This document shows, piece by piece, positions 57,953 to 60,643 of a stretch of DNA of 64,000 nucleotides. Location: NCBI GenBank assembly GCA_022824565.1, contig JAJDZQ010000120.1, forward strand, positions 1 through 64,000. The letters run 5' to 3'. The translations under genes and the position numbers were made by a program. Each line of letters starts with the position of its first letter. Within the stretch, counting starts at the first letter, position 1. The notes below the pieces were generated by a model that searched no databases, was not told the origin of the DNA, and saw only the letters and a program-made list of their open reading frames with translations. Origin of the DNA: Anaerolineae bacterium (GTDB taxonomy: Bacteria > Chloroflexota > Anaerolineae > Aggregatilineales > Phototrophicaceae).

Positions 57953-58654
57953 TTAATTCAGGTTGCGACCCATCTGGCTCAGTTGCGAGCGTACACTGCC
58001 ATCGACCATGCCGCCCGACCAGCGCACGATCAAGCCGCCCAGGATAGCTGGATCTACGCTGAAGCTGGCGTCGGCAGCGCCGACTTCGCTGGTGATTTGC
58101 GTTTGCTCGTCCGCTGTCAAGGGCATGGCGCTGGTGACTTCTATGCTGCCGCCCAGTCCACGCGCATCGGCAGGCAGCTCGGCGATGAAGCTGTTGACCA
58201 GCGACTGCTGCTTCGCCGCGTCGATGCTTTCGCCCAGGATGCGGCTGGCGACCGCGACCGAAATCTGCAGGACTTGCTCGCGCAGGTTGCCCAGCTCGGC
58301 ATTGCGCGTGGCAACTGCTTCGGTCTGGGCATCGTATTGGATCTTGGCGGCGGTTTGACGCGCTTCCTGCTCGATGCCACTAGCGACATCTTCGCCACGG
58401 CCACGCGCTTCGTCGATGACCTTTTGCGCTTCGCTGCGCGCCTGAGCCAAGATCTTCTCGGCTTCGGCTTCGGCATTTTGGCGGGCTGCGGCTGCGGCTG
58501 CGGCATCATCCAAGCCTTTGGCGATGCGGTTGCGCCGTTCGTTCAACACATTGGTCAGCGGATCATAGATGAAGCGCGTCAGCAATACATAGAGCATGAT
58601 GAAGGCGATCAGCCAAATGAGCATTGTACCGGGGTTAATTCCCAGTGCTTCCAT
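57953..58654 (-). CDS. atpF: F0 ATP synthase subunit b with a delta-subunit C-terminal domain
   Basis: A 233-residue protein. One N-terminal membrane helix (PGTMLIWLIAFIMLYVLL), the RFIYDPLTNVLNERRNRIAKGLDDA entry of subunit b and a coiled coil to about 120. Residues 169-233 (IEVTSAMPLTADEQ to GGLIVRWSGGMVDGSVRSQL) match the C-terminal region of subunit delta (V.SA..L...Q...GG.I.R....DGSVR..L). The N-terminal helical domain of delta is absent. This would tie the stator stalk directly to the delta contact. The terminator follows; no atpH, atpA or atpG lies downstream. Confidence 0.85.
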   Translation of the reverse strand: MEALGINPGTMLIWLIAFIMLYVLLTRFIYDPLTNVLNERRNRIAKGLDDAAAAAAARQNAEAEAEKILAQARSEAQKVIDEARGRGEDVASGIEQEARQTAAKIQYDAQTEAVATRNAELGNLREQVLQISVAVASRILGESIDAAKQQSLVNSFIAELPADARGLGGSIEVTSAMPLTADEQTQITSEVGAADASFSVDPAILGGLIVRWSGGMVDGSVRSQLSQMGRNLN

Positions 58655-58682: not shown

Positions 58683-58925
58683 CTAGCTAAGTACGAACAG
58701 GATAATCAGCGATACAACCAGGGCATAAATGGCGACCGCTTCGGCAAAGGCCACGCCGAGGATCATGTTGGTCTGGATAGTCGCTGTATGGTCGGGGTTG
58801 CGCCCCATCGCCATCACCGCGCCACCGACCGAAATCCCGATGCCGATGCCGCCACCAGCCGCGCCAATCATGGCCAGGCCTGCGCCAATCGCTTTACCCA
58901 AAACTATCGTTGCTTGTGGATCCAT
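58683..58925 (-). CDS. atpE: F0 ATP synthase subunit c
   Basis: An 80-residue hairpin of two helices: the Gly-rich first helix (GAGLAMIGAAGGGIGIGI), the polar loop GRNPD and the second helix with Glu62 in AFAEAVAIYAL. The carboxylate carries the coupling ion. The residues around it (FAEA, no Ser after the Glu) suggest protons rather than sodium, which is an inference. It lies between atpB and atpF. Confidence 0.95.
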   Translation of the reverse strand: MDPQATIVLGKAIGAGLAMIGAAGGGIGIGISVGGAVMAMGRNPDHTATIQTNMILGVAFAEAVAIYALVVSLIILFVLS

Positions 58926-58974: not shown

Positions 58975-60381
58975 CTAATGCTCATCGGCGTGATCATCAT
59001 CATGGTGATGGCTGATCGTCGCCAAATTCATGAATATCGCGGTCAACAGGGCGAACACCAGCGCTTGGATGGCGCCGACGAAGAATTCCAGGATGAAGAA
59101 GGGCCAGGGCAGAATCGGCACCAAGAAGCTCATGACGAAGAGCAGAATCGCCCCCGCGAACATCGCGCCCAAAAGACGGAAGCTGAACGAGAGGATCTTG
59201 GCGAAGTCGCCGATCAATTCCAGCAAGCCGACCGCCACATCAATGCCGCCCAGTGGCGACTTAAAGAGCGTGGAGAAGTTGAAGAACTTGGTCAGATAGC
59301 CGATGCCCAAGGCCTTGAAACCGATGTACTGGGTCATGACCACAGAGATGATCGCTATGGTCAAGGTCATATTCAAATCGGTCGAGGCGACGCGCACCAG
59401 CGGCAAAACAACCCAGGGCACGCGTTTCGCATCTTCGCTGCTTGGGTCGGGGTGCAGTGGAATGGGTTCTTTCTTGGCATCTTTGTCGCCACTATAGCCA
59501 TCCTGCCAGGGGGCGGGCGCCACGCCGGTATAACAGCCGCGGTCTGCGCGCGCTTGCTTTTCTGCCACACGCGCCGACAGCACTTCAGCATACGCCGCGG
59601 AGTCTGTGGAGTTTTCAACGACTTCTTCGCCATGGCTGTCTTCGCCGTGGTCGTCGCTGGTTTCATCGGCATGGTCATCGTCGCCATGCTCAGCGTGCGC
59701 CGCTTGATAGCGAGCGTAGGCCGCATCTTCAACCTGCGTCTGTTGAGCCGCCAGCGCAGCCGCTTGCGCCGCCACCAGCGCCGCTTCATCGGCCGCCGCT
59801 TCATCGGCCGGGCTGATCCAATCGCATTGTCCGTTGACATAGGAGATGCCCAGGAAACCCTGATAGATCTCAAAGCCGTCGGTGGTGATGACCTTGTACT
59901 CGCCGGTGTCTGCGTCAAACTTTTCCTTGACATGCGGATGGATGAAGCCGACGGTATCGACGCCTGGGATAAGCGACATCCAGTTCGAGAGCAGCACGAT
60001 GAGGAAGATGGTCATGAACATGTTGAAGATCAAACGGAAATGCGCGCCGCCAGCGATGCCACCGATGAAGCCCATGAGGCCCTCATACAGCGCCTCGAAC
60101 ATATTGTAGAAGCCACCGGGCGGAACTTCGCTTCCGTCGCTGGGACGCCGCCGCGCAATGTACACGATGAACAGCAGCAACAAGACCCACACGATCACCG
60201 CGGCCACGAGCGTATTGGTAATGCGGATGTCCGTAAAGGGGATATCGTAGCCCGCCGGAAGATTTTCGCCAGCCAGTTGAATGAATGGAATGACCGGCGG
60301 CACTACCAGCGCGACAAATACGCCAGCCAGAAACAACAGCAAAGCGACATAGCGGCGTTTTCCGTTCCAAAAGCTATTCAC
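58975..60381 (-). CDS. atpB: F0 ATP synthase subunit a with a large loop insertion
   Basis: A 468-residue subunit a, against 230-280 in most bacteria. The core is intact: helices from FRLIFNMFMTIFLIVLLSNW, then LNMTLTIAIISVVMTQYIGF and SFSFRLLGAMFAG, where Arg402 is the essential Arg (E. coli Arg210). Between about residues 140 and 330, where the usual loop is about 25 residues, lies an Ala-rich, then His/Asp/Glu-rich insertion (AEHGDDDHADE, DDHGEDSHGEE), with Cys186 and Cys283. By E. coli topology this loop is outside. The C-terminus ends SHHHDDDHADEH. GTG start with GGAGG 9 nt upstream, overlapping atpI. Confidence 0.9.
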   Translation of the reverse strand: MNSFWNGKRRYVALLLFLAGVFVALVVPPVIPFIQLAGENLPAGYDIPFTDIRITNTLVAAVIVWVLLLLFIVYIARRRPSDGSEVPPGGFYNMFEALYEGLMGFIGGIAGGAHFRLIFNMFMTIFLIVLLSNWMSLIPGVDTVGFIHPHVKEKFDADTGEYKVITTDGFEIYQGFLGISYVNGQCDWISPADEAAADEAALVAAQAAALAAQQTQVEDAAYARYQAAHAEHGDDDHADETSDDHGEDSHGEEVVENSTDSAAYAEVLSARVAEKQARADRGCYTGVAPAPWQDGYSGDKDAKKEPIPLHPDPSSEDAKRVPWVVLPLVRVASTDLNMTLTIAIISVVMTQYIGFKALGIGYLTKFFNFSTLFKSPLGGIDVAVGLLELIGDFAKILSFSFRLLGAMFAGAILLFVMSFLVPILPWPFFILEFFVGAIQALVFALLTAIFMNLATISHHHDDDHADEH

Positions 60382-60643
60382 TTATACCTTCCTCCTTCTG
60401 TCTAGCAGCAAGGTGCAACTGTTTGGATTTGTAACGGGTATACCAGACTATCATCCCGATACTGACAGGCACGCTCGCCACAAGCATGATAAACACAAAT
60501 GTGGGGCGCGTCCCCAGCGCCTCGTCCAAAGCCAAGCCAAGCAAAAATGTCCCCAAAATCACGAGCAGGAGGAGACAGCCCACCTGCCCGACCACCCCCG
60601 CGACCAATCCATATGTCGAAAAGGGGTTGTTATTTGGCTTCAT
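60374..60643 (-). CDS. AtpI/AtpZ-like assembly protein
   Basis: An 89-residue protein with two hydrophobic helices (GLVAGVVGQVGCLLLLVILGTFLLGL, then FVFIMLVASVPVSIGMIVW) in the AtpI/AtpZ arrangement, first gene of the atp operon and overlapping atpB by 8 bp. AtpI helps assemble the c ring in some bacteria. Its sequence is divergent and the assignment rests on size, topology and position. Confidence 0.65.
   Translation of the reverse strand: MKPNNNPFSTYGLVAGVVGQVGCLLLLVILGTFLLGLALDEALGTRPTFVFIMLVASVPVSIGMIVWYTRYKSKQLHLAARQKEEGISE

Follow-up and report, generated by a model that had tools for sequence, protein, structure and literature searches.

An enlarged H3-H4 loop, putatively closed by a disulfide, in the F-type ATP synthase subunit a of a Chloroflexota lineage

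Results

Gene organization at the F0 locus

The window, a 64,000-nucleotide stretch of an Anaerolineae genome, carries an F0 operon in the order AtpI-like, a, c and b-delta, with nuoN and nuoM upstream of it. The genes of the operon and the segments of subunit a referred to below are as follows:

57953..58654, minus strand: atpF, subunit b fused to the C-terminal domain only of delta (PF00430, and PF00213 positions 105-172)
58683..58925, minus strand: atpE, subunit c (PF00137, E=9e-18)
58975..60381, minus strand: atpB, F0 subunit a, 468 aa (open reading frame, with Pfam PF00119 in two pieces)
58978..59010, minus strand: cytoplasmic C-terminal His/Asp tail of AtpB, aa 458-468 (conserved within the genus; shorter tails ending in His occur across the phylum)
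59011..59376, minus strand: H4, H5 and H6, aa 336-457, with the essential Arg402 at 59176-59178 (Pfam positions 79-217; R402 invariant)
59377..59964, minus strand: enlarged extracytoplasmic H3-H4 loop (the insertion), aa 140-335 (bounded by NWMSLIP and DLNMT)
59407..59532, minus strand: segment past Cys283 (59533-59535), aa 284-325, with the conserved HPDP...AK.VPW motif (invariant columns)
59536..59610, minus strand: predicted helix B, aa 258-282, consensus EVLAARxAEKQARxDRG (pLDDT about 69-84)
59611..59685, minus strand: variable acidic/His linker, predicted to be disordered, aa 233-257 (highest entropy, indels, pLDDT mostly <50)
59686..59811, minus strand: Ala-rich predicted helix A, aa 191-232 (modelled as a helix by AlphaFold2, with pLDDT of about 69-83 for the full-length protein and 75-91 for the insert)
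59812..59961, minus strand: highly conserved first segment ending in NGQCDWIS, aa 141-190, with Cys186 at 59824-59826 (33-sequence alignment, many invariant columns)
59965..60381, minus strand: N-terminal hydrophobic segment and H1, H2 and H3 of the conserved core, aa 1-139 (Pfam positions 4-80)
60374..60643, minus strand: AtpI/AtpZ-like small membrane protein (weak PF09527 match, E=7e-5, below its cut-off)

A murE-like gene follows the operon, and the F1 genes (alpha, gamma, beta, epsilon) are clustered on a different contig (C116; L230).

The atpB frame starts with GTG, and its product matches PF00119 (ATP-synt_A) at 112.5 bits, well above the curated cut-off of 33.9. Profile positions 4-80 fall on bases 59962-60201 and positions 79-217 on residues 327-452 (bases 59026-59403), and the extra sequence sits exactly between the adjacent profile positions 79 and 80. 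The essential arginine of H5 is present as R402 in FSFRLLGAMFA and is invariant across the genus. Against TIGR01131 the protein scores 80.1 bits, under the NCBIfam cut-off of 102.6; an automatic name could be withheld because the insertion splits the match, while the other features of subunit a are still in place. A profile search found no other ATP-synt_A gene in the 3.46-Mb genome, and the F1 set is likewise single, with one alpha and one beta gene and gamma and epsilon beside them. By its operon with c and b, its status as the sole a gene and the single F1 set, AtpB is an F-type ATP synthase subunit a. The sequence-only reading had described a 468-residue subunit a with intact core motifs and Arg402, an Ala-rich stretch, the cluster HGDDDHADE...DDHGEDSHGEE, a C-terminal HHHDDDHADEH and two cysteines, and the open reading frame, the Pfam match and the alignment bear out this description. 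At residue 406 (59164-59166, minus strand), the window and its nearest relatives have Ala (RLLGA) and the remaining members of the genus have Asn (RLFGN); an RLFGA variant of this motif also occurs elsewhere in the order.

Size and distribution of the enlarged loop

In AtpB, H3 ends with NWMSLIP (residue 139) and H4 begins with DLNMT (residue 335), which leaves 195 residues between them, compared with about 7-30 by the same measure in the copies of our sequence set with no loop or a short one. The insertion form, 455-482 aa in length and without stops or frameshifts, is present in 32 of the 33 further genomes from this genus, and also in 32 named public Chloroflexota/Anaerolineae MAG contigs at identities of 74-97%. 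Recurrence of the same intact reading frame in independent genomes rules out an artefactual origin: the probability that a frameshift, misassembly or fusion lies behind the long AtpB is negligible, and the insertion is genuine, as had been proposed. Its position on the extracytoplasmic side, near the periplasmic half-channel, also agrees with the earlier proposal (PMC6377231).

Main subunit a copies across the order range from about 364 to 594 aa, and in all 65 of the others examined the loop is enlarged, mostly with unrelated sequence. Phylum-wide loop lengths were taken by profile boundaries, which trim a few residues at each end; by this measure, loops span 170-191 aa in the genus, 54-280 aa (median 129) in the remaining genera of its order, 0-95 aa (median 45) among the further orders sampled and 0-159 aa (median 31) among the further classes sampled. 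The loop of the genus falls in the upper part of a graded expansion rather than being a lone oddity. Profile and sequence searches with the insert returned no Pfam family and no sequence relative in the PDB. We found no relevant paper in the literature on a disulfide or an extended loop in bacterial subunit a.

Conservation and predicted structure of the loop

In the 33-sequence alignment of the genus, the loop hardly varies over its first 50 residues, at Cys186 and Cys283, and over its last 25 residues, and segments 141-190 and 307-335 are conserved largely at the level of the core. Variability within the loop peaks in the His/Asp/Glu stretch, with a mean column entropy of 1.76 bits versus 0.32 in residues 145-185, before Cys186. 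Across the genus, the region 228-257 has a length of 12-33 residues and contains 2-5 His, the minimum being the 12 residues and 2 His of L062, and His232 is the only invariant residue within the stretch. The net charge of the loop is about -24 in the genus, with a median of -18 in other members of the order. Conservation of the cysteines and the His clusters, which the sequence-only reading had asked about, thus holds for both cysteine columns and, within the genus, for the terminal tail, and fails for the His/Asp/Glu stretch of the loop.

AlphaFold2 was run with 33 close sequences from the genus, an alignment that is too shallow for the full-length protein, and overall confidence was poor (pLDDT 44 for the full-length model and 60 for the insert alone). 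Both models nevertheless place helices at 191-232 and 258-280/282 around a disordered linker, and these two are the only confident helices of the loop. A Foldseek search of the insert model against the PDB found no fold relative, and no helical face emerged as significant from the conservation pattern (permutation p 0.34 and 0.50).

Paired cysteines in the loop

AtpB has no cysteines besides Cys186 and Cys283. Their columns are invariant in the genus alignment, with the flanks NGQCDWISP and DRGCYTG, and their spacing in the genus examples measured is 79-97 residues. Four other genera of the family retain related flanks with spacings of 24 (L083), 24 (L092), 72 (L091) and 92 residues (L090); in the more distant L187 the spacing is 24, and L187 and L083 have the motif ADAGC in common. 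Judged from these alignments, a fixed cysteine base with an arm of varying length looks like a disulfide-closed hairpin.

The number of loop cysteines was counted in 193 distinct Chloroflexota loops, which come from related sequences and are hence non-independent: 75 have none, 114 have two, four have four, and an odd number never occurs. In the remainder of the chain, these proteins carry 0, 1, 2 or 3 cysteines. On a tree of the core, from which the loop was left out, there are at least 12 switches between no cysteine and two or more, five of which are forced by well supported branches, and across the phylum the pairs occupy many different positions and spacings. The genome also encodes a homologue of VKOR, an enzyme that forms disulfides on the extracytoplasmic side. 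Cysteines that are gained and lost together in the presence of an oxidising enzyme are what a disulfide-bonded domain should have. From the even counts, the joint changes on the core tree, the varied positions of the pairs and the VKOR homologue, we strongly infer that a Cys186-Cys283 disulfide closes a helical hairpin whose length can vary above a kept base. In sister lineages, loops of 94-95 residues are free of cysteine (L178, L183 and L184), and the staple is therefore not essential to a long loop. Members of family f4 of the order (L112-L115) have four loop cysteines, as though a second disulfide had been gained.

The C-terminal His tail

In the five-helix topology of subunit a, HHHDDDHADEH follows the last helix and lies on the cytoplasmic side. 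Because the two His clusters are on opposite sides of the membrane, they cannot act together. A tail ending in His occurs in 33 of 33 sequences of the genus, 49 of 65 of the order, 41 of 57 of the class and 19 of 32 of the phylum; the short second copies described below all lack it. Compared in this way, the terminal HHHDDDHADEH is an enlarged version of an ordinary feature of the phylum.

Fusion of subunit b to a truncated delta

Apart from the b-delta fusion, the genome has no other significant delta (PF00213) match, and the N-terminal domain of delta is absent. In all 61 genomes of the order with at least 90% completeness, PF00213 matches fall in frames of the size of a b fusion and end in the C-terminal domain of delta. 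A few of these alignments start earlier than the C-terminal domain, and since most of the frames are too small for both domains, we read the early starts as b coil. A strict link between the b-delta fusion and loop length was considered and rejected, as fusions occur with loops of 0 to 280 residues.

Discussion

Few parts of the universal ATP synthase are as tightly constrained as subunit a, in which the H3-H4 loop is where bacterial enzymes differ. We propose that helix A (191-232), the acidic/His linker and helix B (258-282) form a hairpin stapled at its base by Cys186-Cys283, and that this arm would have a structural task on the stator side of F0. There it would grip the b subunits at their N-termini and membrane helices and would cover subunit a on its outer face, as the shorter loop of Bacillus PS3 does. 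The acidic/His tip would be a flexible, solvent-exposed linker and not the functional centre. In PS3, the H3-H4 loop is extracytoplasmic, varies between species, touches subunit b and is thought to replace mitochondrial subunit f (PMC6377231); most simply, the arm would extend this hold on the stator, and by analogy it would contact b or another subunit. We hold with moderate confidence the explanation as a whole, that is, that AtpB is this organism's normal F-type subunit a, encoded once, with a lineage-specific enlargement of the H3-H4 loop, and that the enlargement is a disulfide-closed helical hairpin working structurally on the stator.

The sequence-only reading had suggested that the His/Asp/Glu stretch binds metal or buffers protons. 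A metal site or proton-collecting antenna would be well placed, since the loop adjoins the entrance of the periplasmic half-channel (PMC6377231), and the acidity of the loop recurs across the order. Its supposed centre, however, is the segment that varies most, falls to 12 residues in L062 and keeps His232 as its single invariant residue, and the terminal His cluster that might have assisted it is across the membrane; we found the suggestion unsupported and regard such a function as improbable. A largely neutral origin, in which low-complexity slippage enlarged an unconstrained extracytoplasmic loop and the result is tolerated without having a function, would suit its graded length (0-280 residues in the phylum), the indel-rich linker and the fact that most loops are unalignable between lineages. 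It fits poorly with flanking segments about as conserved as the core and with cysteines gained and lost as pairs, and we consider it highly improbable.

A contact role for the loop had been proposed as well, and its structural part stands; for contact with complex I, the sole pointer is the adjacency of nuoN and nuoM. The arm might instead join complexes, by bridging a-subunits on one c-ring, neighbouring ATP synthases, or the synthase and another surface protein. In the nearest solved relative, PDB 9itj (18 entries), each entry contains two a chains and four b chains, and the order lacks the N-terminal domain of delta, the part that restricts the PS3 enzyme to one stalk (PMC12229609). Yet the loop of the relative in 9itj (L204) has just 52 residues, which makes two a-subunits possible without a long arm, and the loop sequences vary between lineages of the order. 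Contact between complexes is a candidate reading that we judge unlikely.

The same loss of a delta domain bears on stalk number. An engineered PS3 FoF1 from which delta residues 2-104 were removed, with the rest placed on alpha, carries two stalks and a-subunits on average and as many as three, and its functional H+/ATP ratio is doubled (PMC12229609). It keeps only the C-terminal domain of delta (105-178), and the b fusion of the window similarly covers delta positions 105-172; the domain is joined to alpha there and to b here. Because N-ATPases also lack delta (PMC5706428), its absence is in itself no proof of several stalks. We consider a natural multi-stalk enzyme in the order improbable; in it, two or three b2-a units would share one c-ring, the stapled arms would hold or space the units, and the H+/ATP ratio would be raised. 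Such an enzyme would permit ATP synthesis at low proton motive force. The order-wide loss of the delta N-terminal domain provides a direct test case for more than one proton channel per rotor beyond the 9itj lineage.

Among solved structures, the best match to AtpB is chain T of PDB 9itj (312 aa, E=1.1e-45), which we take to be the ATP synthase of Chloroflexus aurantiacus; L204, from genome G370, matches 9itj over the stretch compared. The loop of 9itj is enlarged at the same place, a loop cysteine pair is present (in GVC and DTC; L204), and the C-terminus ends in His. It differs in having a loop of 52 residues, a cysteine pair located elsewhere, and neither a long hairpin nor a His/Asp/Glu tract of this size; it also contains two a chains per entry. 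Subunit a of Bacillus PS3 has the same topology and a variable extracytoplasmic H3-H4 loop (PMC6377231), but that loop is short and the whole chain has 237 aa (6n2d_a). The long AtpB is a genuine, lineage-wide variant of a known subunit, in which the new element would be the disulfide staple. With the phylum-wide rule of even cysteine counts, the putative stapled arm offers a natural series, with 24 to 97 residues between the cysteines, for probing the role of the loop.

The resemblance to N-ATPases is partial. The b subunit aligns along nearly the whole of TIGR03321 and there is no separate delta, but the scores fall far short of membership, with 38 bits for a against a cut-off of 302.1 (TIGR03306) and 60.7 bits for b against 224.7 (TIGR03321). 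Some members of the order have a short, N-ATPase-like second subunit a (L130-L135), mostly also beside a b-delta fusion; unlike the main copy, these second copies have no loop (loop length 0).

A core tree places the subunit a type of the window apart from most of the order. One genome of the same genus, G033, has a different type of subunit a (L093), which is also enlarged and belongs to the other type of the order; its core is 38% identical to that of the window, compared with identities of 91% for F1-beta, 79% for NuoN and 61% for b-delta between the same two genomes. Judged by these sequences, the a gene was probably exchanged within the family.
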